Positions 30,705-63,114 of a stretch of DNA of 64,000 bases are shown here, one piece after another. The notes below the pieces were generated by a model. That model was not told where the DNA came from. It saw only the letters and a list, made by a program, of their open reading frames with translations, and made no database searches. Within the stretch, counting starts at the first letter, position 1; the number at the start of each line of letters is the position of its first letter. Position numbers and translations under genes: made by a program. This DNA comes from Levilactobacillus lanxiensis (GTDB taxonomy: Bacteria; Bacillota; Bacilli; Lactobacillales; Lactobacillaceae): contig NZ_BOLN01000005.1 of the NCBI RefSeq assembly GCF_016861655.1, positions 62,001-126,000 on the forward strand, written 5' to 3'.

Positions 30705-30905
30705 GGGCTAAACCAGTGTCAGCCGCAGGGTCGGTGAAAATGTGCTTAGCCGTGGGAGTGGCCTTAGCGGTTTACCGCTTAGACCACTGCTATCTTTGAG
30801 ACTCGAGTTAGGAGGCTCAAAGTAAGTCTGGAGACCGCCCTTCGGCTCCAGGCGGCGCCCACCGCGTTCCGGCACATTTTCACCGGTCCGGAGGCGCTGT
30901 TAATC
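30705..30905 (+). repeat. Palindromic element A1 (core A)
   Basis: Frame helix 30732-30745 with 30872-30885 (14 bp, perfect). Inside are three arms: AGTGGCCTTAGCGG/CCGCTTAGACCACT, CTTTGAG/CTCAAAG and CTGGAG/CTCCAG. The left edge GGGCTAAA corresponds to the GGGTTAA end of other copies; the right edge is eroded. Lies between the MoxR operon and the P-type ATPase stop. Confidence 0.8.
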
Positions 30906-30906
30906 T

Positions 30907-33555
30907 TTATTTTAACACGCGGCGCTGGAAGAACTTAACAATTTCCACAATCACGATCATCATAAACGAAGCCACCAGCACGATGGCCCATTGGAAGCCA
31001 TCCAGGTGTGCGACGTGGAACATGCCGTTCAAGCCGGGCACCAGAATCGTCATGGCCAGTAAGGCAAAGGCAATCACGATGGCCCAGTTGAAGAACTTGT
31101 TCTTGAAGAGGCCGACCGTGAAGATCGAGCCGTGAATCGACTTGGAGTTAAAGGCGTGGAACAGTTGAATCAGCCCCAGCGTCGCAAACGCCATGGTTAA
31201 GGCATCGGCGTGGGCCAGGCTGGCCGTTGCGTGAGCCGGGTAGGTCAACGCCAACCAGTAGACGAACAGCGTGATGCCACCCTCTAACAGGCCCTGGTAG
31301 ATGATACCGCCGAAGACGCCACCGGAGAAGAAGTTAGACTTCCGCCCCCGTGGTGGTTGCTTCATGATGTTGCGTTCCATGGGTTCGACCCCCAGCGCAA
31401 TGGCTGGCAGGGTGTCGGTCACCAGGTTGATCCAGAGAATGTGGACCGGCGCCAGAATTTGCCAGCCCAACATGGTCATCATGAACAGGGTCAAGACTTC
31501 CCCTAGGTTGGCGGACAGCAGGTATTGAATGGCCTTTTGAATGTTAGCAAAGACCTTCCGTCCCTCTTCCACGGCGACCACGATGGTGGAGAAATTGTCG
31601 TCGGCCAGAACCATATCACTGGCTCCTTTGGAAACCTCGGTCCCAGTGATACCCATCCCAATCCCAATATCCGCGGCCTTCAGAGCGGGGGCATCGTTGA
31701 CCCCGTCCCCGGTCATGGCAACGACCTTGCCGCGCTTCTGCCAGGCATTGACGATGCGGACCTTGTGCTCGGGGGCGACCCGGGCGTACACCGCGTAGTC
31801 GCTCACTTTCTTAGCAAATGTCGCGTCGTCCATCTCATCGAGTTCGGCTCCGGTAATCACGGCATCGGTCTCACCCTTGTCGATGATACCCAGCCGCACC
31901 GCAATGGCGGCGGCCGTATCGCGGTGGTCCCCGGTGATCATCATTGGCCGAATCCCAGCAGATTTAGCATCCGCCACGGCCTGCGCCACCTCTGGGCGTT
32001 CGGGGTCAATCATGCCGACCATCCCAGCCAGAATCAGGTCATTTTCCACGCTCTCACTGGTCATGTCGGTGGGCACCTGATCCGTGATGCGGTAGGCAAA
32101 CGCCAGGACCCGTAAGGCCTGAGTGGCCATGTTGTGGTTGGTATCTAGGATGTGTTGCCGGTCCGCATCACTCAGCGGGGAAATGGCGCCACCCTTAGAT
32201 AACCGTGTGACGCGCTTTAGCAATTCATCCGGCGCCCCTTTGACGGCAATCAAGAAACGACCGTCCGCTAAGGGATGGACCGTCGACATGAGTTTTCGCT
32301 CGGAATCAAACGGAATCTCCGCGACCCGGGGCATGGCCGTTAAGACCTGGTCAACCGGGTAGTTGCGGTCCATTTGGTACTGCACCAGCGCCGTTTCGGT
32401 GGGGTCACCGGCTAAGCCATCCGGCGTCACCTTGGTATCGTTGCTGAGAATCATGACCTGTGCCAACCGGTCCTCGCGGTCAAAATCAACCGTGTGGGCG
32501 TCGGCTAAACGTAAGTCTTCGTAAACCTTTTCGACGGTCATCTTATTTTGCGTCAACGTCCCGGTCTTATCCGAGGCGATAATGTCGGTGCTTCCCAGCG
32601 TTTCCACGGCGGGCAGCTTCCGGACGATGGCGTGACGTTTAGCCATTCGCTGGGTCCCCAACGCCAAGGTAATCGTCACGATGGCGGGTAACCCTTCTGG
32701 AATCGCGGCCACGGCCAAAGAAATCGCCGTCAGCAGCATGTCGATCAGGCTCTCGGCCTGCCGCCACATCCCCATCGCAAAGACGATGGCCGCAATCACC
32801 AGAATCAAGATGGTCAACGACTTCCCTAACTGGGTCAGGTTGGCCTGGAGCGGCGTGGTAGTCTCATCGGCGGCTTCGATCATACCAGCGATTCGGCCGA
32901 CCTCCGTCTGCATCCCAGTCGCGACCACGACCCCGGTCGCCCGACCATACGTGACATTAGAATTCATAAACGCCATGTTGTGGCGATCACCGATAGGCAG
33001 GTCCGCACCAGTCAGAAGGGCGTCTGCCTTTTCCACGGGCACCGATTCCCCGGTCAGCGCGGATTCTTCGACCTTTAATGAGGCCACGTCGAGCAAACGG
33101 AGGTCGGCGGGAATGATATCACCAGCTTCTAGCAGAACAATGTCCCCCACGACCAGCTCGTCGCTCTTAACGGTCATCACCTGACCGTCTCGGCGAATCG
33201 TGGCGTTGGGCGCCGACATTTCCTTCAGGGCGTTGATGGCTTCCTCAGCCTTGGCCTCCTGAAAGACCCCGAAGATGGCGTTTAACACCACCACGACCAG
33301 GATGATGACGGCATCCACGACCTCACCCGTCAGTCCGGCAATCAGCGCGGCCACCAGCAAGACGATGATCATGAAGTCCTTGAACTGGGCGAAAAATTTC
33401 TGCACCAACGACGTGGTCTTCTGCTGATTCAAGACGTTGTGTCCATTCGTGGTGAGACGTTCCTGTGCGGTTGCCGAGCTTAACCCGCGCTCGCTGGTCT
33501 GCAAGCGCTGGTACAAGTCGGTAACGGTTTCCTGATAAAACGGTAATTTGGCCAT
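30907..33555 (-). CDS. P-type cation-transporting ATPase, probably Mn2+/Ca2+ exporter
   Basis: An 882-residue P2-type ATPase. The phosphorylation site SDKTGTLTQNKM, actuator motif LTGESVPV and hinge MTGDGVNDAPALKAADIGIGMG are all intact, with about ten membrane helices and an N-terminal cation-ATPase domain. By sequence it belongs with PacL/YoaB-like Ca2+/Mn2+ pumps. ATG at 33555 is chosen because AGGAGG lies upstream; the frame extends 12 codons further. The leader carries a yybP-ykoY riboswitch (33658-33773), which is Mn2+-sensing and known to control Mn2+ exporters such as lactococcal YoaB; Mn2+ export is therefore the favoured role. Confidence 0.92.
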   Translation of the reverse strand: MAKLPFYQETVTDLYQRLQTSERGLSSATAQERLTTNGHNVLNQQKTTSLVQKFFAQFKDFMIIVLLVAALIAGLTGEVVDAVIILVVVVLNAIFGVFQEAKAEEAINALKEMSAPNATIRRDGQVMTVKSDELVVGDIVLLEAGDIIPADLRLLDVASLKVEESALTGESVPVEKADALLTGADLPIGDRHNMAFMNSNVTYGRATGVVVATGMQTEVGRIAGMIEAADETTTPLQANLTQLGKSLTILILVIAAIVFAMGMWRQAESLIDMLLTAISLAVAAIPEGLPAIVTITLALGTQRMAKRHAIVRKLPAVETLGSTDIIASDKTGTLTQNKMTVEKVYEDLRLADAHTVDFDREDRLAQVMILSNDTKVTPDGLAGDPTETALVQYQMDRNYPVDQVLTAMPRVAEIPFDSERKLMSTVHPLADGRFLIAVKGAPDELLKRVTRLSKGGAISPLSDADRQHILDTNHNMATQALRVLAFAYRITDQVPTDMTSESVENDLILAGMVGMIDPERPEVAQAVADAKSAGIRPMMITGDHRDTAAAIAVRLGIIDKGETDAVITGAELDEMDDATFAKKVSDYAVYARVAPEHKVRIVNAWQKRGKVVAMTGDGVNDAPALKAADIGIGMGITGTEVSKGASDMVLADDNFSTIVVAVEEGRKVFANIQKAIQYLLSANLGEVLTLFMMTMLGWQILAPVHILWINLVTDTLPAIALGVEPMERNIMKQPPRGRKSNFFSGGVFGGIIYQGLLEGGITLFVYWLALTYPAHATASLAHADALTMAFATLGLIQLFHAFNSKSIHGSIFTVGLFKNKFFNWAIVIAFALLAMTILVPGLNGMFHVAHLDGFQWAIVLVASFMMIVIVEIVKFFQRRVLK

Positions 33556-33599
33556 TTGCCAATTCCTCCTGTGGTGTGCTCGTAAGCCCATCTTTCACC

Positions 33600-33657
33600 C
33601 ATTTTCGGGGGTAAAAAAAGAGACTCACGCGTGCACACAAAATAAATTGTGAACACA
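33600..33657 (-). terminator. Expression-platform terminator of the Mn2+ riboswitch
   Basis: On the minus strand GAGACT from the 3' end of the aptamer P1 helix can pair with AGTCTC about 35 nt later, followed by seven U (plus-strand A-run 33614-33620). A helix GTG/CAC between them extends the stem. Formation competes with P1. Confidence 0.7.
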
Positions 33658-33773
33658 CATAAGTCTCACTATTTAAGGCAATCCCGGATTGGCAACTGGT
33701 TGGACACCAGTTCCAAAGAAATCTTGCTGACGGGTATTGCCGCAGAATCGCTCTGCTAGTTACTCCCTTATGG
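33658..33773 (-). promoter_or_regulatory. yybP-ykoY manganese riboswitch
   Basis: Minus strand begins CATAAGGGAGTAACTAGC and ends TAAATAGTGAGACTTATG. The ATAAG/CTTAT P1 helix, the conserved GGGAGTA entry, the internal loop GGCAATACCCGTCAGC, and the closing AGTGAGAC are the hallmarks of the yybP-ykoY class, in the order known from lactococcal yoaB. The next gene is a P-type cation ATPase, the classic partner. Binding of Mn2+ would stabilise P1 and prevent the downstream terminator, turning the pump on. Confidence 0.85.
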
Positions 33774-33840
33774 TTGCTTTAGGAACAGTATACCGGAATG
33801 ATTTCACCGCGTCTACCCAAAAGGTATTTAAAAGTTAATA

Positions 33841-34063
33841 GGGTTAGCCATAAGACTGGTCTTTGCCCGGCCTCTGGGATGGTGAAAATGAGCCGGAACG
33901 CTGTGGGCGCGCGCCTGGAGCCAAAGGGTGGTCTCCAGGCTTACTTTGAGCCGCTAGGAACCGCGTCTCAAAGATAGCAGTTCCCTAAGTGGCCAAGCCA
34001 CCAAGGGAACTCCCACGGCTAAGCTCATTTTCACCATCCCTGCGGCTAACACTGATTTAACCC
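33841..34063 (-). repeat. Palindromic element A2 (core A, reverse)
   Basis: Frame helix 33876-33893 with 34023-34040, 18 bp without mismatch. Ends GGGTTA (33841-33846) and TTAACCC (34057-34063) are inverted. Three arms: CTGGAG/CTCCAG, CTTTGAG/CTCAAAG and a longer AGTTCCCTaag/AGGGAACT arm. Lies between the riboswitch and the ffh stop codon. Confidence 0.85.
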
Positions 34064-34218
34064 ACATTTCGTTAATCTTTCGTCAGCACAGTTTTTGACT
34101 GCTCAGTCATTATTTTCCGTTAGATAGACGCTTGCCACATCCCCGAATCCAACAAAAAACAGGCCCCAGCACAACGATTACGCATCGTCATCCTCGAACC
34201 TGCTTAGTCTATCAGAAA

Positions 34219-35676
34219 CTATTTCCGCTTCTTGCCCCGTAAACGTTTCTTCTTGTTCTTTTTCATTTGCCGAGTCATGCGGTTCATGGCCATCTTTTGC
34301 ATGCGACCACTGATACCACCGCCCATGCCGCCACCCATTCCTGAGTTGCCCATGAGCTGTTCCATGCCGGACATGTTCCCCTTGGAAACTTGGTTCATCA
34401 TTTTCTTCATTTGGTTAAACTGCTTGATCATTCGGTTCACTTCATGAATTGGCCGACCAGCCCCAGCCGCGATGCGTCGCCGCCGTGAGGGGTTCAGAAC
34501 GTCCGGATTAGTCCGTTCCTGTGGCGTCATGGAGTACACGACCGCCTTCAGGTGATTCATATCCTTGGGGTCGACCTGCGCATTCTTCAGCGCTGGGTTG
34601 TTGGCCATCCCGGGAATCATTTTCATTAACTCATCCATTGGCCCCATCTTTTGAATCTGTTCGATTTGGTCGAGGAAGTCGTTAAAGTCAAAGGAATTTT
34701 CCTGAATCTTTTCGGTTAACTCCTTGGCTTGTTTCTCGTCAAAGTCTTTTTGGGTCTTTTCAATCAGGGAGAGCATATCGCCCATGCCCAAGATTCGGGA
34801 CGCCATCCGGTCAGGGTGGAAGACGTCCAGGTCGGTCATCTTTTCACCTTGCCCGATGAACTTGATTGGCTTACCAGTGACGGAACGAATGGATAAGGCG
34901 GCCCCACCACGGGTATCGCCATCCAACTTGGTCAGAACGACCCCGGTCACGTCGAGCTTGCCGTTGAATCCTTCGGCAGTGGCCACGGCGTTTTGCCCAG
35001 TCATGGCATCAACCGTCAAGAGGATTTCGTCTGGGTGCGCGAGATTCTTGATGTTGGCCAGTTCATCCATCAGCTGTTCGTCAATTTGTAAACGACCAGC
35101 CGTATCGATGATGACGTAGTCGTTGTGGTCCTTTTCCGCTTGGGCTAACCCTTGGCGAACAATTTCCACGGGATCCACGTCGGTGCCCATTTCAAAGACG
35201 GGCACGTCAATGCCGGCAGCCACTTGGACCAATTGGTCGATGGCGGCTGGCCGGTAAACGTCTCCGGCAATCATTAAGGGACGGGCGTTTTCTTCGTTCT
35301 TTAACTTCAACGCCAGCTTACCGGCAGTCGTCGTTTTCCCGGCCCCTTGAAGCCCAACCATCATGATGATCGTTGGAATCTTAGCCGACTTGTTCAGGGG
35401 AACGGCTTCGTCACCCATCGTCTTAGTCAGTTCTTCGTCAACGATCTTCACAATTTGTTGTGCAGGGTTTAAGCCTTCGAGAACGTCGGCGCCCATTGCC
35501 CGGTCGCGGACCTGCTTAACGAAGTCTTTGACCACGGTAAAGTTAACGTCGGCTTCCAGCAAGGCCAGCCGGATTTCTCGCATGGTTTCGCGTAAATCAC
35601 TTTCGGAGACCTTGCCTTTTCCCCGAAGTTTGCGCATTGCGTTTTGTAGTCGTTCAGTTAATCCTTCAAACGCCAT
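34219..35676 (-). CDS. ffh: Signal recognition particle protein Ffh
   Basis: A 485-residue SRP54 GTPase that binds signal sequences and the SRP RNA and targets ribosomes to FtsY. N domain about 1-85; G domain with GLQGAGKTTTAGKLA, DVYRPAAIDQL, DTAGRLQID and TKLDGDTRGGAA; M domain rich in methionine with SGMEQLMGNSGMGGGMGGG and a basic tail. ATG at 35676 is preferred, since AGGTGG lies 8 nt upstream; an earlier GTG would overlap that site. About 20 nt after ylxM, as is normal. Confidence 0.98.
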   Translation of the reverse strand: MAFEGLTERLQNAMRKLRGKGKVSESDLRETMREIRLALLEADVNFTVVKDFVKQVRDRAMGADVLEGLNPAQQIVKIVDEELTKTMGDEAVPLNKSAKIPTIIMMVGLQGAGKTTTAGKLALKLKNEENARPLMIAGDVYRPAAIDQLVQVAAGIDVPVFEMGTDVDPVEIVRQGLAQAEKDHNDYVIIDTAGRLQIDEQLMDELANIKNLAHPDEILLTVDAMTGQNAVATAEGFNGKLDVTGVVLTKLDGDTRGGAALSIRSVTGKPIKFIGQGEKMTDLDVFHPDRMASRILGMGDMLSLIEKTQKDFDEKQAKELTEKIQENSFDFNDFLDQIEQIQKMGPMDELMKMIPGMANNPALKNAQVDPKDMNHLKAVVYSMTPQERTNPDVLNPSRRRRIAAGAGRPIHEVNRMIKQFNQMKKMMNQVSKGNMSGMEQLMGNSGMGGGMGGGISGRMQKMAMNRMTRQMKKNKKKRLRGKKRK

Positions 35677-35695
35677 TCGTATTGCCACCTAACTT

Positions 35696-36190: not shown

Positions 36191-36196
36191 CTTTAG

Positions 36197-42072: not shown

Positions 42073-42288
42073 GTTGGGTGTTCCTCGATTCGCCTGCGGC
42101 TGCCAGGACCACCACCCTATGGGACACGGTCAAAGCCTGAGAAGCGGTCTTTGACCTCAAGCTGAAGCTTCACAAAAACCGTGAATCTACAGCTTGGCCC
42201 GTGTTCTAAGGCTAGGAAGTTCACCTAACCTAAGAACACCGTCACAGGGTGGTGGCCCTGACCTCCTCCGGCTAAGGCAACACCCAAC
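42073..42288 (+). repeat. Palindromic element B1 (core B, divergent)
   Basis: Outer helix 42073-42081 with 42280-42288 (9 bp) and second helix CCACCACCCT/AGGGTGGTGG (42109-42118 with 42246-42255). Three arms: GGTCAAAG/CTTTGACC (42128-42135 with 42149-42156), CAAGCTG/CAGCTTG (42158-42164 with 42190-42196) with an inner TTCAC/GTGAA, and GTGTTCT/AGAACAC (42201-42207 with 42233-42239). Same three-arm plan as other copies but different sequence. Lies just upstream of rnc. Confidence 0.75.
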
Positions 42289-42890: not shown

Positions 42891-42964
42891 TGTAATCCCT
42901 CGCTCACAGTATTCAAATAGTAGTCTAACCGTTTTGCCGGTCCTTGTCTAGCCAATTAATCATC

Positions 42965-43179
42965 CGGGTTAAGCTGGTTGTTTCTTCCGCCTCCGGGCTG
43001 GTGAAAATGGGCCGTGGCGCTGTGGGCGCCCGTCTGGAGCCAAAGTTCGGTCTCCAGACTTACTTTGAGCCGAAGCCCACATCTCAAAGATAGCAGTTGC
43101 CTAAGCGGTAAACCGCTAAGGCAACTCCCACGGCTGAGCTCATTTTCACCAGCCCTGCGGCTCACACTCATTTAACCCG
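42965..43179 (-). repeat. Palindromic element A3 (core A, reverse)
   Basis: Ends CGGGTTAA (42965-42972) and TTAACCCG (43172-43179) form an exact 8-bp terminal inverted repeat. Frame helix 42995-43009 with 43141-43155 (15 bp, perfect). Arms: GTCTGGAG/CTCCAGAC, CTTTGAG/CTCAAAG, and AGTTGCCTaAGCGGT/ACCGCTaAGGCAACT. The cleanest copy for defining the boundaries. Lies upstream of acpP. Confidence 0.88.
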
Positions 43180-43324
43180 TGTCGTGCATGTTCTCGGATT
43201 CATGTTGCCAGGTAATCACCTGACGACTGCATCTCTCGCATCAAGAAAGTTTCCTGACGCGAATGCCTACACAGGCTAAACCACGCCAAACCGTAAGAAC
43301 GTGAAACACGGGTGACGTCACCGT
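43180..43324. other. Spacer between A3 and B2 with a flank repeated before A4
   Basis: No gene. The stretch from CATCAAGA (43239) to about 43295, including GGCTAAACCACGCC, is similar to 43541-43600 in front of A4, about 302 nt further on. Confidence 0.5.
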
Positions 43325-43501
43325 CAGTGACCAGAGGCGGCGCTGTGTCGGTGGTCTAGGCTGAGGTTTCTCCACTCAGCCTAGACCACGGGACGACCTT
43401 TGAGACCGCCGCTCAGGCTCAAAGTCGAGGTGGAAGCCTGCTCCTCCGGCTGGAACCGTTCCCCACAGCAGGGCAACTTGAATCCGCCGCCGGGAACGGT
43501 T
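43325..43501 (-). repeat. Palindromic element B2 (core B, reverse)
   Basis: Long arm GTGGTCTAGGCTGAG/CTCAGCCTAGACCAC (43351-43365 with 43375-43389, 15 bp perfect), CTTTGAG/CTCAAAG arm (43398-43404 with 43418-43424), closing GCTGTG/CACAGC (43342-43347 with 43464-43469) and AACCGTTCCC/GGGAACGGTT (43455-43464 with 43492-43501). The TCACCTTGATCC part of the outer helix seen in other core-B copies is missing here. Confidence 0.82.
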
Positions 43502-43574
43502 GCGATGACACCGGCCCATACCATTCTGGCAATCAGCTGACATCAAGAGAGGCTCCCGATATGAACACCTAAAT

Positions 43575-43793
43575 GGGCTAAACAACGCTAAGCCGTGAGG
43601 GCGAGAAAAATGGGCTCAGCCGGGGGATTTCTTGTTTGACGTTAAAACGTCAAACAAGAAATGGTGACTTTGAGACTCGCTCTTAGAGGCTCAAAGCAAG
43701 CCCAGAGACCGCCCTTTGGCTCTGGGCGTCCTGCCCCCAGCGTTCCGGCCCACTTTTCTCGCCCGGTAAGGCGACTCAACGGTCGTTTAACCC
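43575..43793 (+). repeat. Palindromic element A4 (core A)
   Basis: Ends GGGCTAA (43575-43581) and TTAACCC (43787-43793). Frame helix 43599-43615 with 43748-43764 (17 bp, one mismatch). The first arm is a perfect 17-bp palindrome ATTTCTTGTTTGACGTT/AACGTCAAACAAGAAAT with a two-base loop, unlike any other copy in sequence. CTTTGAG/CTCAAAG and GCCCAGAG/CTCTGGGC arms follow. Ends 11 nt before the plsX stop codon. Confidence 0.87.
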
Positions 43794-43804
43794 ATTATAG
43801 GCGT

Positions 43805-44839
43805 TTACTTCAGGGACTCCTTGAGGGCACTCATTTGCTCGCCGTGTTCGGCAAAGTAAGTGACTAACTGGTCCGCACTCTTGCTGGCAATCAATTCATG
43901 GATTTGACCAATCGTGTTCTTAACGGTTGGTGCCTTGGTGGAACCATGGGTCTTAACGACCGGCGCCTTCAAGCCCAAGAGCACGGCCCCACCATATTGG
44001 GAGTAGTCCATGGCGCTCTGAACGTTGCGGAAGACTGGCTTCAACATGCTGGCCCCGATTTTACCGCCCAGACCGCCGCTCATGATTTCACCCTTGATCA
44101 GTTTTAACATGGACAGTGCAGTGCCTTCGATGGCCTTCAACGTGGCGTTTCCAGTAAACCCATCGGTCACGACCACATCCGCCGCCCCATTCAGTAATTC
44201 ACGGGATTCAACGTTGCCGACAAAATTAATTTCGTCCATCGCAGACAGTGCTTCGTGGATGGCCCGGTGATTCTTGTCACCCTTGTCCGCTTCCGTCCCG
44301 TTGTTTAACAGGCCGACGCGGGGGTTCTCCACGTGCATGACGGATTGGGCATAGTACTGGCCCATGATGGCGTATTGGACGACGTTAAATGGCTTGGTAT
44401 CGGCGTTGGCCCCCACGTCCAGCATCACAAAGCTCGATTGGTCTGGCTTTTGTAAGACGGGTAAGGTGGTCGTCAAGCCGGGCCGATCGATACCCTTGAT
44501 TCGGCCGACAATCAGCAGCCCGGCAGCCAAGACGGCCCCGGTATTCCCAGCGGAGAAAAAGGCATCCGCCTCCCCCTCACGGACGGCCGTGGCGGCCAGT
44601 ACGATGCTGGAATTTTTCTTCCGCCGTACGGCACGAACGGGTTCGTCCTCCATGGCAATCACTTCTGGCGCTGGCATCAATTTGATGCGGGTGCTGTCCT
44701 GTAATAGCGGTTGGACCTTTTCTTCTTGACCGTACAGTAAAAATTCAATGTCTGGGTACGCGTCACGGGCTAATTCGATGCCCTTAACGATTTCAGCGGG
44801 CGCATAGTCGCCGCCCATTGCATCTACAGCAATTTTCAT
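43805..44839 (-). CDS. plsX: Phosphate acyltransferase PlsX
   Basis: A 344-residue enzyme making acyl-phosphate from acyl-ACP, the first step of phospholipid synthesis in most Gram-positives. It starts MKIAVDAMGGDYAP and contains FFSAGNTGAVLAAG, DVGANADTKP, LLNNGTEADKG and TDGFTGNATLKAIEG, all PlsX signatures. Full length. It follows recG by 16 nt, so recG-plsX are co-transcribed. Confidence 0.97.
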   Translation of the reverse strand: MKIAVDAMGGDYAPAEIVKGIELARDAYPDIEFLLYGQEEKVQPLLQDSTRIKLMPAPEVIAMEDEPVRAVRRKKNSSIVLAATAVREGEADAFFSAGNTGAVLAAGLLIVGRIKGIDRPGLTTTLPVLQKPDQSSFVMLDVGANADTKPFNVVQYAIMGQYYAQSVMHVENPRVGLLNNGTEADKGDKNHRAIHEALSAMDEINFVGNVESRELLNGAADVVVTDGFTGNATLKAIEGTALSMLKLIKGEIMSGGLGGKIGASMLKPVFRNVQSAMDYSQYGGAVLLGLKAPVVKTHGSTKAPTVKNTIGQIHELIASKSADQLVTYFAEHGEQMSALKESLK

Positions 44840-52483: not shown

Positions 52484-52599
52484 GCAGCACCTCCTTTAAA
52501 CTCTTTCCTTTCAGTTTACACTAATTTGCAGTTCGGCACTAGTTTTCCTGCAGATTGTGTTAGTTCAATTGTCAGCAAGGCTAAAAATATGTGGTGAAT
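52484..52599. other. Gap upstream of rsgA
   Basis: No gene. A TAAAAATATGTGG-type AT-rich stretch leads into B3; no convincing promoter found on the minus strand. Confidence 0.3.
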
Positions 52600-52790
52600 G
52601 ACGACCGTTCCCGCCGGTAGGCTCAAGCGGTCCTGCTGTGGGGAACGGTGCCAGCCTGAGGAGCAGTCTGCCACCTCGCCTTTGAGCCCCCAAAACGGTC
52701 TCAAAGGTCGTCCCGTGCTCTAGACTGAGAAGCCCACTCAGTCAAGACCACCGACACAGCTGTTCACCTTGACCCGCCTCTGGTCACTGA
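52600..52790 (+). repeat. Palindromic element B3 (core B)
   Basis: ACCGTTCCC/GGGAACGGT (52604-52612 with 52641-52649), GCTGTG/CACAGC (52635-52640 with 52755-52760), outer TCAAG/CTTGA (52623-52627 with 52768-52772), CCTTTGAG/CTCAAAGG arm (52679-52686 with 52700-52707) and GACTGAG/CTCAGTC arm (52723-52729 with 52737-52743). The last arm is shorter than in B2 or B4. Confidence 0.8.
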
Positions 52791-52895
52791 CATGGACCCC
52801 GTATTCTCACTAGTTTGGTGCTGGCAGTGGACTATCGACTATTGACTGACCCATCGTCATACTCGTGTCTAACGACAATTACATTTTTACGTTGC

Positions 52896-52940: not shown

Positions 52941-52980
52941 ATTACTAATTAAAGTTAACCCCTACAGACAGTCCCAAGCA

Positions 52981-53182
52981 CTAACACCGTGTTAGCCGTG
53001 AGGGTGGCCAAAATGGGCTCAGCCGTGGGAATTCTCTTAGTAGCTTGGCTACTTAGAGAATTGGTATCTTTGAGACGTGACTTTCGGCTCAAAGTAAGCC
53101 TAGAGACCGCTCTTTGGCTCTAGGCGCCCGCCCACAGCGTTCCGGCCCATTTTGGCCACCCGGTAAGGCGAAACAACGTGTG
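52981..53182 (+). repeat. Palindromic element A5 (core A)
   Basis: Frame helix 53002-53018 with 53145-53161 (17 bp, perfect; sequence GGGTGGCCAAAATGGGC differs from other copies but keeps pairing). First arm AATTCTCTtAGTAGC/GCTACTtAGAGAATT, then TTTGAG/CTCAAA and CCTAGAG/CTCTAGG. The right end abuts the prkC stop (53183-53185). Confidence 0.87.
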
Positions 53183-55213
53183 TTAGTTCTTAGTGACGTG
53201 GCTGTCGGAAGCGATGACGTGGCCGTCTCTGACCACCTTATACGCCCCCGCCTTGCCAGACGCCACGGTGAATGGCAGCGTTACGCTGGTATCCGCCGTG
53301 ATCGTCATCTGCTTGTAGATGGTGCTCAACGAGTGGTCCTGATCCTTCAGGTAGATCTGAACCAAGTTCGACGCCGACGAGCTACTGCTACTGCTGCTCT
53401 CATCGCTGTCGTCGCTTTCACTCTCGCTGTCGCTATTATCAAATGGAATCTTAACGTTCACGCTGAACTGATCGACGCTGGAGCTACTCTCGCTCTCCGC
53501 GCCCCGTGACAGGGTCAAGGTGACCTCGTCACCCTCCTGCACAACGGCGCCCTCACCAGGAGACTGCTTGATGACGCGGCCCTTGGTAACGTCGCTGGAG
53601 TAGGCGTAGTCAAACGCCAGGTTCAGGTTGTGATTGGTCGCGTAGCTCTGGGCTTGGGCCTTGGTTTTATCCGTCAGGTCCGCGAGCGTCACGGTTGCCG
53701 ATCCGGTCGACACCGTAAAGGTTATGTCCGTCCGTGACGGCACGACCCGTTCGCCAGCGTTCACACTCTGTTGCATGATTTTGCCGGCCGGAACGCTGGT
53801 TGAATGCACGGACTCCCGATGAACGGTAAATCCCAGGGCCTCCAACTTAGCGGCGGTGCTGGCGTACGAATCACCCTGATAATCGGCTAGCTTGTAGCGC
53901 TTAGGACCCGTGCTGATCCACAAATCTACGACCGTCTCGCGTTTGAGCTGGGTCCCGGACCGGGGCTCCGTTCGCACGACTCGGTTCACTTTGACCTTGG
54001 AACTAGCCGTCTTGTGGACCTTGCCAACGCTCAGATAGGCGTCCTGCATCCGCGATTTGGCCACGGTTTCGGTTCGCCCAGTCACATCGGGCACACTGGT
54101 CATCTGTGGCCGGAAGAGCGCCATGCCAATCAGAATGCCGGCAACCAGTAAAAGTACAACGAGGCCGGCCAGCAGAAATTTACGCCGTCGCGGATGCCGG
54201 GTCTTCTTACGACCCTTCTTGTCAACTTTTTGCGGCGTCTCTTCGTCATCGGCCTTGGCCGCTGGCTTGGAATCCGCCTTCGTGGCCGCTTCGGCCGCAA
54301 CGGGCGCGGCCGAGCTCAATGCGCTGAGGGGCAAGACCTTGGTCTCCCCATCATCGTCCTGAACGGGCGTAAATTTGCGTTCACCCGCCCGCTTGGGGGA
54401 CAGCGAGGTTTTTAAATCAGCTGCCATACTCGCGGCATCTACGTACCGGTCTTCCGGCCGTTTGGATGTGGCCTTGAGGACCACGTTTTCCAAGGCTTGG
54501 GGAATCCGCGGGTCGATCTCACGGACGGACGGAATCTCCGATTGGAAATGCTTCAAGGCAATTGAAACGGCGGTTTCACCCTCGAAGGGCACCGTGCCCG
54601 TTAACAGTTCATACAAAATGATGCCGAGTGAATAGATGTCGGATTTCTTGGTCGCCATCCCCCCACGGGCCTGTTCTGGTGACAAATAGTGCACCGAACC
54701 CAGGACCGTGTTGGTCTGCGTCAGACTGTGTTCCGACAACGCCACGGCAATCCCAAAGTCGGTAATTTTGGCGACTCTGTTTTGATCGATCAAAATGTTT
54801 TGTGGCTTCAGATCCCGGTGAATAATGTTGTGTTCATGGGCCGTTTGGACCGCACTCAGGATCTGCTCCATGATTTGAATCACTTCTTGATAGGCAATGG
54901 GAAAGTGGTCCTTGATGTAAGCCTTGAGGTCGGTCCCCTCGACGTACTCCATGACCAGGTACTGCATCCCATTTTCCTCGCCCACGTCATAGACCTGAAC
55001 GATGTTCGGATTGACCAGCTCGGTCGCTGCTAACGCCTCGCGCTGAAACCGACGAATCGTGCTGGGATCGTCCCGCAGATCCAGCCGTAACAGCTTCACG
55101 GAGACGTCCCGGTCTAAAATCAGATCGTGAGCTAAATAAACGTTGGCCATGCCACCCTCGCCCAAAGCCCGGACGATGCGGTACCGGCCGCTCAGCGTAT
55201 ACCCCGTCCGCAT
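53183..55213 (-). CDS. prkC: PASTA-domain serine/threonine protein kinase
   Basis: A 676-residue membrane kinase that senses peptidoglycan fragments/lipid II and controls wall synthesis and division. Kinase domain about 10-275 with GEGGMANVYLA, VKLL, catalytic HRDLKPQNIL and DFGIAVA. A cytoplasmic basic linker (RKKTRHPRRRKF) leads to the membrane helix LLAGLVVLLLVAGILIGMALF (about 348-370), then about three extracellular PASTA repeats and a Ser-rich segment (SDSESESDDSDESSSSSSSS, about 592-611) before a C-terminal beta region. It overlaps stp by one base. Complete. Confidence 0.96.
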   Translation of the reverse strand: MRTGYTLSGRYRIVRALGEGGMANVYLAHDLILDRDVSVKLLRLDLRDDPSTIRRFQREALAATELVNPNIVQVYDVGEENGMQYLVMEYVEGTDLKAYIKDHFPIAYQEVIQIMEQILSAVQTAHEHNIIHRDLKPQNILIDQNRVAKITDFGIAVALSEHSLTQTNTVLGSVHYLSPEQARGGMATKKSDIYSLGIILYELLTGTVPFEGETAVSIALKHFQSEIPSVREIDPRIPQALENVVLKATSKRPEDRYVDAASMAADLKTSLSPKRAGERKFTPVQDDDGETKVLPLSALSSAAPVAAEAATKADSKPAAKADDEETPQKVDKKGRKKTRHPRRRKFLLAGLVVLLLVAGILIGMALFRPQMTSVPDVTGRTETVAKSRMQDAYLSVGKVHKTASSKVKVNRVVRTEPRSGTQLKRETVVDLWISTGPKRYKLADYQGDSYASTAAKLEALGFTVHRESVHSTSVPAGKIMQQSVNAGERVVPSRTDITFTVSTGSATVTLADLTDKTKAQAQSYATNHNLNLAFDYAYSSDVTKGRVIKQSPGEGAVVQEGDEVTLTLSRGAESESSSSVDQFSVNVKIPFDNSDSESESDDSDESSSSSSSSASNLVQIYLKDQDHSLSTIYKQMTITADTSVTLPFTVASGKAGAYKVVRDGHVIASDSHVTKN

Positions 55214-55959: not shown

Positions 55960-55971
55960 GGCTGGTCACCT

Positions 55972-57315: not shown

Positions 57316-58259
57316 TATTCAGCCACCTGTTCGCCTATTGTCAGTGCGTCGCTCGTCCCGTTCAAGAAGTCCGTGATACTTAGCTTGGGCTTCCCGGCCG
57401 GTTGAATCTCGTCAAGGCCTAAGACCCCGTGTTCTCCCGTGGCAATCGCCAGGTGGTGCTTGTCATGGCTGACCAAGGCGCCCGGTTGTAAGTCGGTCGT
57501 CTCGTCCAGCACGGTCACCTGCCACAGCTTGGTCCGCACGCCATTTAAGTAAATATGGGCGATAGGGGCCGGCCGTAATGCCCGGACCTTGCAGTCGATC
57601 AAATGGGCACTCAGGTTCAAATCAATGCGTTCTTCATCGGACTTGATGGTTGGTGAGAACGTGACCTGGTCCTCATCCTGAGGAACCGGCGTAATTTCAC
57701 CGGCCAACAGCTTCGGTAAGGTCTCTAGCAATAAGTCGCGACCCAGCAGGCTCAGCTTGTCAAACATGGAGCCAACATCATCTTGATCCGTGATTGGCAT
57801 GGCTTTTTGGGCCAAAACCGCACCGGCATCCATTTTCTTTTCCATGAACATGATGGAAACCCCGGTCTCCTTGTCACCATTCATGATGGCATAGTGAACG
57901 GGCGCGCCACCACGGTACTTAGGCAGCAAGGACGCGTGAACGTTGACCGCCGCCACCTTGGCTGCCTTAAGCAGCTTGGTTGGCAAAAATTGGCCAAAGG
58001 CCGCCGTGACAATTAAATCTGGTGCTAATTCAATGGCCCGCGCCATTTCGTCACTACCGGAAATCTTTTGTGGTTGGAGCACTTCGATTCCATTTTCAAC
58101 GGCGACCTGCTTAACGGGGGATGCCGTTAAGACGTGCTTCCGCCCAACTTTACGGTCCGGTTGAGTCACAACGGCTAAGACGTCATAGCCGTTCTTGATT
58201 AAACTACTGAGGATAGGCGCCGAAAACGCCGGCGTGCCCATGAAGATTACTGAAGTCAT
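57315..58259 (-). CDS. fmt: Methionyl-tRNA formyltransferase
   Basis: A 314-residue enzyme formylating initiator tRNA. MTSVIFMGTPAFSAPILSSL, formyl donor-binding HASLLPKYRGGAPVHYAIMNGD and EKKMDAGAVL are diagnostic. ATG at 58259 is chosen since the family begins here; another ATG four codons upstream exists, and neither has a strong ribosome site. Upstream, B4 lies in the leader and priA is about 0.9 kb away. Confidence 0.96.
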   Translation of the reverse strand: MTSVIFMGTPAFSAPILSSLIKNGYDVLAVVTQPDRKVGRKHVLTASPVKQVAVENGIEVLQPQKISGSDEMARAIELAPDLIVTAAFGQFLPTKLLKAAKVAAVNVHASLLPKYRGGAPVHYAIMNGDKETGVSIMFMEKKMDAGAVLAQKAMPITDQDDVGSMFDKLSLLGRDLLLETLPKLLAGEITPVPQDEDQVTFSPTIKSDEERIDLNLSAHLIDCKVRALRPAPIAHIYLNGVRTKLWQVTVLDETTDLQPGALVSHDKHHLAIATGEHGVLGLDEIQPAGKPKLSITDFLNGTSDALTIGEQVAE

Positions 58260-58357
58260 GCAATGCACCATACTTTCTGTTTTAACATTTGGTTTGAATT
58301 TTAACTGGTTATACTTGTGTTTAATTTGCCTTGTTGGGTGACTAACAATGATGAGTT

Positions 58358-58550
58358 ATTCCCGTTCCCGGCAGCGGATTCAAGGTGCCCTGCTGTGGGG
58401 AACGGTTCCAGCCTAAGAAACGGGCTTCCACCTCGCCTTGAAACCTCGCTAAACCCGCGAGTTTCCAAGGTCGTCCCATGTTCTAAGCTGAGAAATTCAC
58501 TCAGCTAAGAACATCGACACAGCTGGTCACCTTGATCCGCCTCTGGTCAC
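58358..58550 (+). repeat. Palindromic element B4 (core B)
   Basis: Outer TCAAGGTG/CACCTTGA (58380-58387 with 58528-58535), GCTGTG/CACAGC, arm CCTTGAAACCTCG with CGAGTTTCCAAGG (58436-58448 with 58458-58470), long arm ATGTTCTaAGCTGAG/CTCAGCTaAGAACAT (58478-58492 with 58500-58514), and an alternative CCGTTCCC/GGGAACGG pairing (58362-58369 with 58398-58405) that crosses the outer helix. Upstream of fmt. Confidence 0.85.
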
Positions 58551-58732
58551 TCAGACTGGCTCGTGCATTTTGCTTTGAGTCAATCAATCACTGGCTAGAA
58601 CTGTTAATTCAACGCTAATCCAATTGAAAAATGAATGACTCGAATCAGAGACAATCCACTCATCTAACAATTGAAGACCGCGAACAAATCAGGCAACCTT
58701 CCCCCCAATCAGAATCAACTGACACTGTTGTC

Positions 58733-58855
58733 GGGTTAACACCGTGTCAGCCGCAGGGCTGGGAAAACTGGGCCGGTCGTGGCAGTGACCAGAGGTGAGC
58801 CAAGGTGCCTTGAGCTCGCCGGCGGGAACGGACGCGAGTAGGCCCAGTTTTGTTC
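58733..58855 (-). repeat. Miniature palindromic element A7 (frame helix with collapsed core B)
   Basis: Left end GGGTTAAC (58733-58740). Frame helix AAAACTGGGCC/GGCCCAGTTTT (58764-58774 with 58841-58851). Inside, only the edges of a reverse core B remain (AGTGACCAGAGG at left, CGGCGGGAACGG at right) around CAAGGTGCCTTG; the three arms are gone. A separate 11-bp hairpin (58853-58863 with 58882-58892) follows. Confidence 0.75.
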
Positions 58856-58938
58856 GTGAATTTCTGTTCATCCACCATTGAAAATTCACGAATCACACAG
58901 CAACCTCCCACTAATTAGAATCAACTGACACTGTTGTG

Positions 58939-59145
58939 GGGTTAACGCCGTGTTAGCCGCAGGGCTGGTGAAAATGGGCTCAGCCGTGGGAGTTGCCTTA
59001 GCGGGTTTCCCGCTTAGGCAACTGCTATCTTTGAGACTCGCTTCTCAGAGGCTCAAAGTAAGTCTGGAGACCGCCCTTCGGCTCCAGACGTGCGCCCACA
59101 GCGCCACGGCCCATTTTCACCAGCCTGGAGGCGCGGGCAACGACA
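58939..59145 (+). repeat. Palindromic element A6 (core A)
   Basis: Left end GGGTTAAC (58939-58946). Frame helix 58963-58979 with 59109-59125 (17 bp, perfect). Arms: AGTTGCCTTAGCGGG/CCCGCTTAGGCAACT (one G-T pair), CTTTGAG/CTCAAAG and GTCTGGAG/CTCCAGAC. The 46 nt before the element repeat those before A7 (58694 and 58901). Ends just before the priA stop. Confidence 0.88.
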
Positions 59146-59153
59146 AGCACAAC

Positions 59154-61571
59154 CTACATAAAGTTCATTGGTTCTGAATCGATGGTGATGGCTAAGCCGT
59201 GGCGGGCCGGAATCTGTGCCGCCTGCCGGATTTTCTCCAGCAACGGCCGCAATTGCGGTTCCCGTTTATATTTAATCACAACTTGATAATAATACTTCCG
59301 CTTGACCCGCGCAATCGCCTTGGGCGTGGGACCCAGAACAATGGCGTCCTTGCTCAAGCCCTTTTGCAGGGTGCCGACGATTTGGTACATGGCTTTGGCA
59401 GCCGTGGCCTCGTCCTCGTGACTGGCGGTCAGCTGCACGGCAAAGTAATACGGCGGGTAATTTCCCTGGTGCCGCATATGCATTTCCGTGACGAAGAAGC
59501 GTTCATAATCCTGTTGTTGTGCCAATTCAATGGCATAGTGGTCCGGGTTGAACGTCTGGATAAAGACCTCGCCAGGCTTTTCCGCCCGGCCGGCCCGACC
59601 ACTGACCTGTGTCAGTAGCTGGAAGGTCCGCTCGCTGGCCCGGAAATCCGGTAAGCCCAGCGCGGTGTCCGCGTTTAAGACCCCGACCAACGTGACGTTG
59701 GGGAAGTCGAGTCCCTTGGCAATCATTTGGGTCCCCAGCAAAATGTCTGCCTGGTGATCGCCAAATTGCCGCAGAATCTTTTCGTGGGCACCCTTGCGCC
59801 GCGTGGAGTCCACGTCCATCCGTAAGATGCGCGCCGTTGGAAATTCCTTTTGCAGGGCCGTTTCCACCTTCTGCGTCCCGGTCCCATAGTAGCGAATCTT
59901 GCGGCTATGGCAGTTGGGGCAGATGTGGGGAATGGCTTCCTCGTGCCCACAGTAATGGCATTTCATGGTGTGGGTATCCATGTGGAGCGTGAGTGAAATA
60001 TCACAGTTGGGACATTTCAGCACGAACCCACAGTCCCGGCACATCACAAACGACGAGTATCCCCGCCGATTCAACATCAGAACCATCTGTTCGTGGCGGT
60101 CGAGCCGTTCCTGAATCGCCGTTAACAGTGGCTGGGAGAAGTCCCCGTCCGCGCGCTGCTTCACTTCTTCACGCATGTCAACGATGTGGACCGTTGGCAG
60201 TGGATGGTCGTTGACCCGTTTCGCCAAAAGTAACCGGGTGTACAACCCCTTGGCAGCGCGGGCGCGCGTCTCTAAGGACGGCGTGGCGCTCCCCAGGACA
60301 ACGGGGCAATGATTGTACTTTCCCCGCCATAAGGCCACGTCACGGGCGTGGTACCGAGGATTTTCATCCTGTTTATAACTACTTTCATGTTCCTCATCCA
60401 TGATAATGATGCCGAGGTTTCTCACCGGGGCAAAGATGGCGGAACGCGCGCCGACGACCACGGTGGCTTCACCCTGATCGATACGCCGCCACTCATCATA
60501 CTGTTCGCCCTTAGACAAACCACTGTGCAAGACCGCCACGCGCTGGCCGAAACGGGCCTTCACCCGGTTGACCATCTGGGGGGTCAGCGCAATTTCAGGG
60601 ACCATCATCAGGGCCGTGCGGTGTTGCTGGAGGGCAACGGCAATGCTTTGTAAATAAACTTCGGTCTTGCCACTCCCGGTCACCCCTTCGACCAGGAAGT
60701 TTTCGGTTCGCTGCTCATCGACCGCCTTGGTAATAGCGGTCACGGCCACCTGCTGCTCAGCGTTTAACTTTAGCGGCTTCGTGGGGGTAACGGGTTGGTG
60801 AAACGGATCACGATAAACTTCCAACGGTTGCTTCGTCAGCCAGCCCTTGTCAGCGGCGGTCGTCATGACGGCGGTGCTGACCCCCGTGGCGTGACTGACT
60901 TGGCTTTGGGCCACTAATTTATCCGGGTCCATCGTTTGTAAATAGGCTAACAACTCCGCCTGCTTTGGCGCCCGTTTGGCCACCTCCGCTTGAATCTCCT
61001 GAAGTTTGGCAACGGGAAGCGCCGGTTTGATGCCGGTCGTGGTCTTGGCCGCGGCCTTACTGGTGACCTGATACGTCACCTCGACCTTCCCCGCACGCTG
61101 CAGCCGCAGAAGCCCCGCCAACGTTGTGTCGGCTAATTTACTGGTATCAAACGCCCGCGGTGCCCCATCCGGAAAATAGGTCGCCATTTCCTGATCCGTC
61201 AGCGGCACGGTCGGTTGAATCTGCCGTTCGGTCTGAGCCTTTAACAGGCTGGGCAACATGGTCTGGATACACGTGATGCGAAAGGCATAGGTCGTGTCGG
61301 CCAGCCAAGCGGCCAACTGTTGCAGCTCAGTCGTTAAAATGGGCGCGAGATCCAGGACGGATTGAATCGGTTTCAGTTGCCCGTCAAAATTCGTTACATC
61401 ACTAAGGCCGACCACCACGCCGGAAACGACTCGGTGACCGCGACCAAAGGGTACCGTGACCCGCATCCCGACCTGAACCTGATTTTCCAGGTCGGCGGGA
61501 ATTGCGTAAGAATAAGGTTCGTTCGTCTGCATCGTTGGCACGTCAACAATAATTTGGCCAATCTGGGCCAT
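59154..61571 (-). CDS. priA: Primosomal protein N' (replication restart helicase)
   Basis: An 805-residue helicase that reloads the replisome at broken forks. N-terminal DNA-binding domain (about 1-105), then GVTGSGKTEVYL (Walker A), DEEHESSYKQ, zinc cluster CRDCGFVLKCPNCDISL...CHYCGHE...CPNCHS, and DxLLGTQMIAKGLDF and GRAGR motifs. Complete. It follows coaBC by 19 nt, the standard gmk-rpoZ-coaBC-priA-fmt order. Confidence 0.97.
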   Translation of the reverse strand: MAQIGQIIVDVPTMQTNEPYSYAIPADLENQVQVGMRVTVPFGRGHRVVSGVVVGLSDVTNFDGQLKPIQSVLDLAPILTTELQQLAAWLADTTYAFRITCIQTMLPSLLKAQTERQIQPTVPLTDQEMATYFPDGAPRAFDTSKLADTTLAGLLRLQRAGKVEVTYQVTSKAAAKTTTGIKPALPVAKLQEIQAEVAKRAPKQAELLAYLQTMDPDKLVAQSQVSHATGVSTAVMTTAADKGWLTKQPLEVYRDPFHQPVTPTKPLKLNAEQQVAVTAITKAVDEQRTENFLVEGVTGSGKTEVYLQSIAVALQQHRTALMMVPEIALTPQMVNRVKARFGQRVAVLHSGLSKGEQYDEWRRIDQGEATVVVGARSAIFAPVRNLGIIIMDEEHESSYKQDENPRYHARDVALWRGKYNHCPVVLGSATPSLETRARAAKGLYTRLLLAKRVNDHPLPTVHIVDMREEVKQRADGDFSQPLLTAIQERLDRHEQMVLMLNRRGYSSFVMCRDCGFVLKCPNCDISLTLHMDTHTMKCHYCGHEEAIPHICPNCHSRKIRYYGTGTQKVETALQKEFPTARILRMDVDSTRRKGAHEKILRQFGDHQADILLGTQMIAKGLDFPNVTLVGVLNADTALGLPDFRASERTFQLLTQVSGRAGRAEKPGEVFIQTFNPDHYAIELAQQQDYERFFVTEMHMRHQGNYPPYYFAVQLTASHEDEATAAKAMYQIVGTLQKGLSKDAIVLGPTPKAIARVKRKYYYQVVIKYKREPQLRPLLEKIRQAAQIPARHGLAITIDSEPMNFM

Positions 61572-61590
61572 GGTCTGTCACCTCGCTTGC

Positions 61591-62802
61591 TTACTTGTCT
61601 GCTAATAATTGGGCGACCCGGTCGACTAGGGCCCGGGCAATCACCGTTTTGCTGGTCTTGGGCGTCTGATCCGTCACACCATCTGGCAGAATGAAGGTGA
61701 CCTGATTGTCATCCCCATTAAACCCAATGTCGCTACGGGAGACGTCGTTGGCGGCCAACAGGTCTAAGGACTTGCTGGCCAGTTTCTTTTGGCCGTTAGC
61801 CAGTAAATTCTGCGTCTCCGCGGCAAAACCGACCGTGACCTGGTGCGGCTGCTTAATGGCCGCAACTTGTTTCAAAATATCGGGTGTCTTTTTAAGTTTT
61901 AAAATAAATTCATCATTGCCAGTCGTCTTTTTAATTTTTTGATCAGCCGTAACTTCCGGTTGAAAATCAGCGACCGCGGCCGCCATCACTAAGGCGTCGG
62001 CCTGAGGAAAACGCGCCAACACGGCTTGTGACAAATCGGTCGTGCTTTGGATGGGCACGACCGTCACGCTGGCCGGTGCCGCCAGCTTCGTGGGTGCCGT
62101 GATCAACGTGACCTCGGCACCGGCCTCACGAGCGGCGGTAGCGACCGCATAGCCCATTTTGCCAGAGGAGTCGTTGGTCAGGAAACGGACAGGGTCTAAC
62201 CGTTCGCGAGTCCCACCAGCGGTCACGAGGATCCGCCGACCGACCAGCGTCTGGGGCGTAAACACACCCAGCTGCTCCACCTGAGCAACGATATCGGCAG
62301 GCTCGGGGAAGCGGCCCTGACCGGAATAGCCCTCCGCCAGTTTGCCAGTGGCCGGGGCCAGGACGTGCACCCCATCGGCAATCAGTTGCTGGCGATTCCG
62401 CTGCGTCGCGGGTGCTTGCCACATATGGGTGTTCATGGCCGGCACAACGATCTTGGGGGCGGCGGTCGCCAACCAGGTTGCACTGGCAGCGTCGTCGGCC
62501 TGACCATTGGCAAATTGGGCCATGAGGTTCGCGGATGCTGGCGCGGCAATGGCCAGGTCGGTCCAATCGGCCAGCTCAACGTGGGCAATTTGCCCGTTGG
62601 CCTGCCACCAGGACTCGTCCGTGAGCACGGGTGCCTTGGTCAGGGCCGCAAAGGTTGCCGCCGTGACAAACTTGGCGGCCCCCGCTGTCAGAACAACGCG
62701 AACCGTGGCGCCGGTCCGTTGTAGGTCACGGGCTAGGAGTGCGGCCTTATAAGCGGCCACACTGCCACCGACCGTTAACGTAATGTGTTTGTCTTCTAGC
62801 AT
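61591..62802 (-). CDS. coaBC: Coenzyme A biosynthesis bifunctional protein CoaBC
   Basis: A 403-residue fusion: phosphopantothenoylcysteine decarboxylase (CoaC, about 1-180; flavin fold, VGGSVAAYKAALLARDL, PAMNTHMW) and phosphopantothenate-cysteine ligase (CoaB, about 185-403; ILVTAGGTRERLDPVRFLTN, KKTPDIL). ATG at 62802 has GGAGG just before; the open frame extends 54 codons upstream through B5 but that part is repeat sequence, not protein. Separated from rpoZ by B5. Confidence 0.96.
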   Translation of the reverse strand: MLEDKHITLTVGGSVAAYKAALLARDLQRTGATVRVVLTAGAAKFVTAATFAALTKAPVLTDESWWQANGQIAHVELADWTDLAIAAPASANLMAQFANGQADDAASATWLATAAPKIVVPAMNTHMWQAPATQRNRQQLIADGVHVLAPATGKLAEGYSGQGRFPEPADIVAQVEQLGVFTPQTLVGRRILVTAGGTRERLDPVRFLTNDSSGKMGYAVATAAREAGAEVTLITAPTKLAAPASVTVVPIQSTTDLSQAVLARFPQADALVMAAAVADFQPEVTADQKIKKTTGNDEFILKLKKTPDILKQVAAIKQPHQVTVGFAAETQNLLANGQKKLASKSLDLLAANDVSRSDIGFNGDDNQVTFILPDGVTDQTPKTSKTVIARALVDRVAQLLADK

Positions 62803-62856
62803 TGCTTTCCCTCCAATTATATCATCTGCACTTGAGGCGAAGGAAACCATCGTCAC

Positions 62857-63114
62857 AAGGCTAGTGAAAATAAACCTAGACTGATCAATGACTGCCGTTC
62901 CCGACGGCGGGTTCAACCTGTCCTGCTGTGGGGCCCGGTTCCAGCCTGAGAAACGGGCTTCCACCTCGCCTTGAAACCTCGCTGAAGTTCACGAGTTTCC
63001 AAGGTTGGCCCATGGCCTAAGCTGAGCAGTTCACTCAGCTAACGCCATCGACACAGCTGACCAGGTTGACCCGCCTCTGGTCACTCACATTGATGGCTAA
63101 TTTTCACTAGCCTT
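62857..63114 (+). repeat. Palindromic element B5 (core B inside an A-type frame)
   Basis: Frame helix AAGGCTAGTGAAAAT/ATTTTCACTAGCCTT (62857-62871 with 63100-63114, perfect 15 bp), very like the core-A frame. Core B inside: TCAACCTG/CAGGTTGA (62913-62920 with 63062-63069), CCTTGAAACCTCG arm and an ATGGC...AGCTGAG/CTCAGCT...GCCAT arm. The CCGTTCCC/GGGAACGG pair is broken here (GGGCCCGG). Confidence 0.87.

Follow-up and report, generated by a model that had tools for sequence, protein, structure and literature searches.

A high-copy family of three-armed, self-folding intergenic elements in Lactobacillaceae, with cores exchanged within locus-specific frames

Among the dispersed intergenic repeats of bacteria, repetitive extragenic palindromic (REP) sequences, BIMEs and REPINs are grouped in inverted pairs, and the enterobacterial repetitive intergenic consensus (ERIC) sequences, found in enterobacteria, form one long stem. 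In one account, REP units are described as hairpins of 20-40 bp that carry GTAG/CGTC tags and have a RAYT transposase (PMC3733652); in another, all 18 families bcr1-bcr18 of the Bacillus cereus group together comprise 165 and 155 copies in two strains, some with conserved RNA folds and about half or fewer of the copies transcribed (PMC3446304). Here we describe a family of structured elements found in a 64-kb stretch (hereinafter, the window) of contig 5 of the 3.03 Mb draft genome of Levilactobacillus lanxiensis, a bacterium whose PlsX protein shares 99% identity with its counterparts in L. wangkuiensis and L. mulengensis. The elements, about 155-310 bp in length, are built around one of two cores, A or B, and a frame, the left and right ends of which we denote FL and FR.

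An earlier note on this DNA had listed twelve elements, none of them before 30.6 kb, and had proposed that they share one plan, with a closing helix and three arms, and that cores A and B have the same arm order when read in opposite orientations. An iterative nhmmer profile search of the window recovered all twelve, seven of the frame type and five of the B type, and no element in positions 1-30600. The plan is borne out as well, genus- and family-wide. In both cores RNAalifold finds the closing helix and three arms, with a hairpin, AGACCGC...GGCT, that has one bulged base and is common to arms 2 and 3; moreover, the two profiles match when oriented oppositely, so that A+ corresponds to B-, here named the sense strand. 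The two cores are homologous in opposite orientation, and their fold is a three-way junction that is backed by compensatory change, in other genera too. In the core A alignment, 98.2% of the cells are paired and 135 are doubly changed, compared with 31 in shuffled alignments; in core B, the respective numbers are 92.9%, 143 and 34 (the B structure counted is the prediction on the B sense strand, in which a single pair out of 40 is present in just 1 of 41 rows). Both sides have changed without loss of pairing in 22 of the 48 pairs of A and 25 of the 40 of B, values reached by none of 500 shuffles. In controls with the structure slid along the alignment, which unlike shuffling keep the relatedness of the copies, pairing falls to 26-50%. 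Among 33 copies from other genera, 96.2% of the cells are paired and 41 of 48 pairs are doubly changed; this alignment (20 stretches from 15 genomes, picked for matches) was fitted to the model, and slid versions score at most 0.10 compared with 0.66. The arm 2 columns are empty in 9 of these 33 copies (L229-L248) and the arm 3 columns in at least 9. Single copies also fold below their shuffled versions, namely, 58939-59140 (z -7.8) and the reverse strand of 58345-58590 (z -5.3). The outer stem, that is, the frame, varies in sequence from locus to locus and retains its pairing, and pairing in the flanks extends past the conserved ends, again in a largely locus-specific manner; in small forms, as read by eye, a single arm is left inside a new paired frame helix (C2:81143, 67278, 140085). 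Two details of the earlier note did not hold: GGGTTAA/TTAACCC ends had been ascribed to complete A copies, but GGGNNAA/TTAACCC was found in only 15 of 137, and the supposed miniature A element at 58706 (A7) reads as a B core with an internal deletion, enclosed by a frame.

The family is numerous in its own genome. A single A query and a single B query from the window each hit at least 39 further genomic places with E < 1e-50, and a covariance model of core A (R1; 38 sequences, 155 positions, 48 pairs) matched all of the best 150 of 1730 candidates. A contiguous 400 kb sample of contig C2 of the same genome contains 123 elements, or one copy per 3.3 kb and 6.3% of the sequence, compared with one copy per 5.3 kb and 3.9% for the 12 elements of the window; C2 was selected for its many matches and is element-rich, with 33 of the 150 best A-model matches in 15% of the genome. 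Density along C2 is uneven, with only 11 elements in the last 120 kb of the sample (C2:280-400 kb). In a sister genome (G016, or G16 in coordinates), with a PlsX 100% identical to that of L. mulengensis, 107 elements (6.3%) were found in 370 kb, a stretch that is largely the region matching C2. Extrapolation from the window and C2 (570 to 930) gives a rough estimate of about 500-900 copies genome-wide. That many A copies are closely similar suggests recent spread.

The covariance-model search across Lactobacillaceae that the earlier note had proposed yielded R1 matches in 71 of 251 genomes and 13 of 40 genera including Levilactobacillus (best 12 candidates per genome, strict filters). Within the genus, R1 matched 33 of 35 genomes (best 86 candidates per genome scored), with low counts in G004 (6) and G008 (8; this genome is 72% complete) and no match of this A model in G012 and G024, where B-type copies were not searched. 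In an order-level sample, for which the families of the unmatched genomes are mostly not listed, R1 was found in 4 of 198 genomes, all four belonging to the Lactobacillaceae. Comparison of PlsX sequences places the hosts near Secundilactobacillus, Pediococcus, Loigolactobacillus, Paucilactobacillus, Periweissella and Limosilactobacillus. Among 80 named plsX-region loci (plsX, acpP, recG and other gene names used here are labels from reading the sequence), matches were detected in 12, namely, 11 of Levilactobacillus and one labelled Lactobacillus sp. (L025), so that copies in other hosts are sparser or more diverged. Plasmid records (72,556, searched with A and B queries) and phage records (50,697, searched with an A query only) contained no match.

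The elements show a marked polarity with respect to genes. In the C2 sample, 119 of 123 lie outside open reading frames (ORFs; predicted with a simple script). Of 131 elements of the L. lanxiensis genome, 117 have FR as the end closest to a gene, as do 61 of the 64 situated no more than 40 bp from one; FR lies a median of 24 bp from a stop codon, or 6 bp for elements alone in their gap, compared with medians of 208-446 bp on the FL side. The ratio of FR-nearest to other elements is 24 to 3 in other Levilactobacillus species and 21 to 9 in other genera; A2 is an exception to the rule in the window, with FL closer to a gene than FR. Neighboring elements are also arranged in a preferred order: among 140 pairs less than 500 bp apart, 78 are -+, 45 ++, 17 -- and none +- (58, 31, 12 and 0 in the L. 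lanxiensis genome; 20, 14, 5 and 0 in the sister), with the reservations that the two genomes share ancestry, that part of the former set was chosen for A matches and that at least 4 of the ++ or -- pairs are fragments of one element. The sets from other Levilactobacillus species and from other genera contained nine -+ pairs and one ++ pair, and nine -+ pairs, respectively, and no +- pair in either. At one locus (L243 in G237, 223-1057), the two members of a -+ pair are separated by about 580 bp, in which an apparent ORF, by eye, seems to run into the right-hand element, and in L043, labelled L. brevis CD0817, the gap between plsX and the recG ORF is 1026 bp long and holds three elements, compared with 16 bp in the window.

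The two strands of the elements differ. Wobble was counted only at pairs common to the folds of both strands, which favors neither strand, in 137 of 174 A and 182 of 240 B profile matches (short or weak ones dropped, the sister genome included; cells are not independent). The A copies contain 109 GT and 48 AC cells (pair columns 14 to 7), and the B copies, read on the B+ strand, 23 GT and 57 AC cells (4 to 14), that is, an excess on the sense strand in both cases. Consensus folds are stronger on the sense strand as well (-52.9 vs -43.8 kcal/mol for A, -44.4 vs -19.9 kcal/mol for B), and among single copies it gives the better fold in 87 of 137 for A and 166 of 182 for B. The wobble excess on one strand, together with the stronger predicted sense fold, points to a single-stranded form, RNA or DNA alike; strand-biased mutation would be a milder explanation. 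The A elements lean to the C-rich strand, 99:50 (p 7e-5), the G-rich strand being the leading strand.

Comparison of the sister genomes shows that cores are exchanged while frames stay in place. Of 207 gaps compared between C2 and G016, 51 carry an element in either genome and 47 in both, and copy number differs in 17 of these 47. At C2:179711 a core A is found where the counterpart, G16:41015, has a core B, and at C2:276681 a core B where G16:137462 has a core A; in each case, the locus-specific frame is kept and the orientation is the same. The alignments further read as a framed B at C2:199827 against a collapsed B, a flank copy and an A in G016, and as the reverse situation at C2:216637. 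Changes of the same kind are seen in the window, at 43331-43809 compared with its L. wangkuiensis counterpart, where A4 is not present as an A element, and at 58700/58906, where the flank and left frame of A7 recur before A6 with 88% identity over 74 bp. Tandem pairs are biased in their conservation: the copy on the FL side is the weaker one in 47 of 62 (p 6e-5; 46 of 58 in a recount without four pairs that are fragments of one element), and a repeated flank was detected in 30 of 62 (local score of at least 13, a score without random control). Comparison of 36 one-to-one orthologues of like type shows changes in 76 of 1153 pairs, 37 of them on both sides, and all 37 are still paired; several of these double changes cluster in one copy, as fits an exchange of entire arms. 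Orthologues diverge at 4.9% of paired and 10.6% of unpaired sites. The comparison of filled and empty sites suggested in the earlier note found plsX-flanking gaps filled in some and empty in others of 20 loci of Levilactobacillus and one near relative.

The reading that we prefer, tentatively and at somewhat less than even confidence, is that the elements form an old, chromosomal, non-coding, self-folding family of the Lactobacillaceae, a selfish hairpin that spreads by copy-and-replace; the family itself, its fold, distribution and polarity, the exchange of cores in fixed frames and the mostly one-sided weakness of tandem copies are shown by the data, whereas both the selfish behavior and the mode of spread are what we infer from these patterns. 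Conceivably, one strand (A+/B-) of a resident element would fold into a hairpin at which the DNA stalls or breaks, and the gene-side end would then copy the core and the right frame from another copy via the homology of the frames. The local flank and left frame would be copied a second time and the ends joined, so that the product would consist of flank, frame and decaying old core, followed by flank, frame, new core and gene; a later deletion between the repeated flanks would yield a clean core swap. Copy-and-replace would account for the old-then-new order, the repeated locus-specific flank and the clean swaps, and leaves the first arrival at sites and the FR-to-gene polarity without account.

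Several observations weigh against this proposal. The break-and-copy step rests on end products only, and conservation of the stems could equally reflect a function. Only 4 of the 51 element-bearing gaps are one-sided, no clean de novo insertion was caught, and of two one-sided gaps that were aligned, one is deletion-like and one ambiguous. Among the 39 one-sided pair changes between orthologues, 22 broke the pairing, and some junctions contain, by eye, about 30-45 bp of filler that falls outside the copy-and-replace account. More space is found on the FL side than would be expected (median residual gap in C2, 283 vs 81 bp), and its sequence is not common to loci (282 elements, compared where more than 60 bases are left unmasked; one weak pair), which simple transposition does not predict. 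Finally, B shows no bias to the C-rich strand (69:64), and that of A is not significant in 20 extra stretches taken alone (49:33, p 0.10) and is not separated from gene orientation. An element that was seemingly lost in the L. lanxiensis genome between CTTCC repeats at the foot of the palindrome was observed at C2:226801 (counterpart in G016, C12:86873).

It is possible, although we hold this with less confidence than the copy-and-replace reading, that the family represents a new class, that is, a three-way-junction nucleic acid that is active as one strand, replaces the cores of its kin in locus-specific frames without a known transposase or reverse transcriptase, turns the same end to the gene and occupies about 4-6% of the sampled chromosome.

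Of the alternatives, the one that fares best, although we consider it rather unlikely, is that the elements are functional structured RNA or DNA sites selected at gene edges, such as mRNA 3' ends, 5' leaders or protein-binding cruciforms, the core exchange being a by-product of gene conversion. The compensatory changes at single loci between species, the motifs and bulges conserved across genera, the short distance from FR to the stop codon and the occupancy of most element-bearing gaps in both species all are compatible with such a role, as are some features of the flanks. In particular, most flank bins have more A-runs than T-runs on the sense strand, which amounts to T-runs for the transcript of the neighboring gene, and terminator-like sites mostly point away from the element (19 away vs 8 towards in 136 A copies, 24 vs 18 in 181 B copies). 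However, orientation to transcription is not fixed (same vs opposite direction in co-directional gaps, 25 vs 42 in C2, 26 vs 34 in G16 and 4 vs 4 in the window), which weakens the case for a strand-fixed mRNA element. Nor is there an enrichment of promoters in the spacer that would drive the sense strand (9 vs 13 promoter-like sites in 227) or a clear difference in terminator-like sites at gene 3' ends with an element, in a comparison with unequal search lengths; presence varies between species at many gaps, and the very numerous copies lie beside different genes. T-runs are not in excess on the sense strand and show a mild antisense excess. Insertion into intrinsic terminators is disfavored, as there is no T-run directly past the flank pairing; the antisense T-runs and the gene-end comparison do not decide this point.

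Less likely again is a non-autonomous transposon resembling a miniature inverted-repeat transposable element (MITE), one of the options that the earlier note had listed, with a putative transposase that recognizes the bulged arms and with -+ pairs as transposon ends. The multiple copies in both orientations, the outer inverted repeats, the strict -+ pairing and the strand bias of A would fit. The ordinary form of this scenario is weakened because none of 15 testable copies shows a target duplication of 3-10 bp (identity of 2 bp occurs in 3 of 15, with 0.75 expected) and because the Y1 transposase is dispensable: the Y1_Tnp domain (PF01797) was found in 23 of 35 genus genomes and is missing from 12, including the element-rich G029, G002 and G003 with at least 83 matches each, whereas G012 has five Y1 matches and no R1 match. 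A RAYT-type Y1 transposase was accordingly rejected as the mover, other transposase types not being tested. The members of 31 of the 58 -+ pairs in the L. lanxiensis genome are of unlike type; a -+ pair as a transposon with cargo was rejected because the spacers are not common to loci. A long target duplication of the gene end was likewise found in none of 67 loci except one tandem array. Two similar Y1 loci of the L. lanxiensis genome (G000:C2:168653, L140, and C4:22648, L139) read as IS605-like; they have no A-profile match, and a weak B match is located at about 1 kb from one of the two.

A non-autonomous retroelement resembling short interspersed nuclear elements (SINEs), with a reverse transcriptase copying the sense RNA, appears very improbable: the one-strand wobble signal, the one-sided decay in tandem pairs and the single RVT_1 match in the L. 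lanxiensis genome speak for it, but RVT_1 is present in just 10 of 35 genus genomes, this one included, and was not found in the element-rich G016, G002 and G006, so that reverse transcriptase was rejected as a required enzyme. Hardly credible at all is the possibility that the elements are relics without present spread, in which replication slippage (palindrome correction) alone has passively maintained the pairing of old palindromes, to which the locus-specific paired stems of unrelated sequence and the apparent loss at direct repeats would conform, but which is contradicted by the motifs retained across genera and the many closely similar A copies.

Table 1. Elements of the window and the parts of the reference copy A6 (positions in the window; strand is that of the sense strand)
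Element	Composition	Position	Strand	Remarks
A1	frame + core A	30696..30915	+	FR end abuts stop codon of minus-strand ORF 30907-33591
A2	frame + core A	33822..34075	-	internally deleted in L. wangkuiensis (L009)
B1	divergent B core with own stem	42089..42275	-	B+ match; profile match at 42091
A3	frame + core A	42954..43185	-	corresponding gap in L. cerevisiae (L010) without element
B2	core B	43331..43492	+	in L. wangkuiensis fused directly to right frame arm of A4
A4	frame + core A, unusual long arm	43565..43809	+	FR at stop codon of ORF 43805-44839 (labelled plsX)
B3	core B	52584..52813	-	first member of -+ pair with A5
A5	frame + core A	52978..53177	+	FR end 6-9 bp from ORF 53183-55213; profile match at 52980
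B4	core B	58349..58576	-	first member of -++ run; profile match at 58369
A7	frame around internally deleted B core	58706..58852	+	end read by eye; profile match 58706-58796
A6	intact frame + core A, reference copy	58911..59168	+	profile match overlaps stop codon of ORF 59154-61571
A6 closing (frame) helix		left 58962..58980, right ~59108-59126	+	single-sequence fold
A6 arm 1	long, variable	58986..59028	+	
A6 arm 2	CTTTGAG...CTCAAAG with bulge motif	59029..59058	+	
A6 arm 3	bulge motif AGACCGC...GGCT as in arm 2	59062..59089	+	
B5	core B within A-type frame	62848..63145	-	

The elements represent a very dense load of intergenic repeats for a bacterium, in food bacteria that are often sequenced. 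How non-coding hairpins spread and are kept up in bacteria is an old question for REP, ERIC and similar repeats, and the polarity of the elements and the swapping of cores between sister species offer a testable handle on it. Should the fold work as an RNA or a protein site, it would be active next to hundreds of genes simultaneously.

That the earlier note knew of no described family with this plan agrees with the plasmid and phage searches and with a search of Rfam 15, in which neither the window nor four loci of other genera gave a match at the gathering score (best E-value 2.6, for 58300-59200); likewise, searches of an open-licence literature library showed no description of such elements in lactobacilli, and none was found in the available portions of PMC2267715, PMC3733652, PMC3496567, PMC11109978, PMC12306157 and PMC3446304. 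The elements work like known dispersed structured repeats but fail the tests that define REP/RAYT systems and, so far, those for MITEs. Like REP, BIME and REPIN sequences (PMC3733652), they are high-copy chromosomal intergenic hairpins; unlike REP/RAYT, they are three-way junctions of 155-310 bp that need no Y1 transposase (GTAG/CGTC tags were not scanned for). With ERIC, named in PMC2267715, they share imperfect palindromes in intergenic space, and they are set apart from it by description, not by sequence. The same basis of distinction applies to bcr1-bcr18, likewise an intergenic repeat family of a Gram-positive group, a three-arm core and core swapping not being mentioned in the portion available of PMC3446304. 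In PMC11109978, the text of which does not contain 'lactobacill' or 'lacti', MRSC-65-2 is a single long stem, unlike the elements described here; MRSC-65-2 and similar motifs nevertheless resemble them as high-copy structured motifs with covariation and inconsistent orientation to genes.

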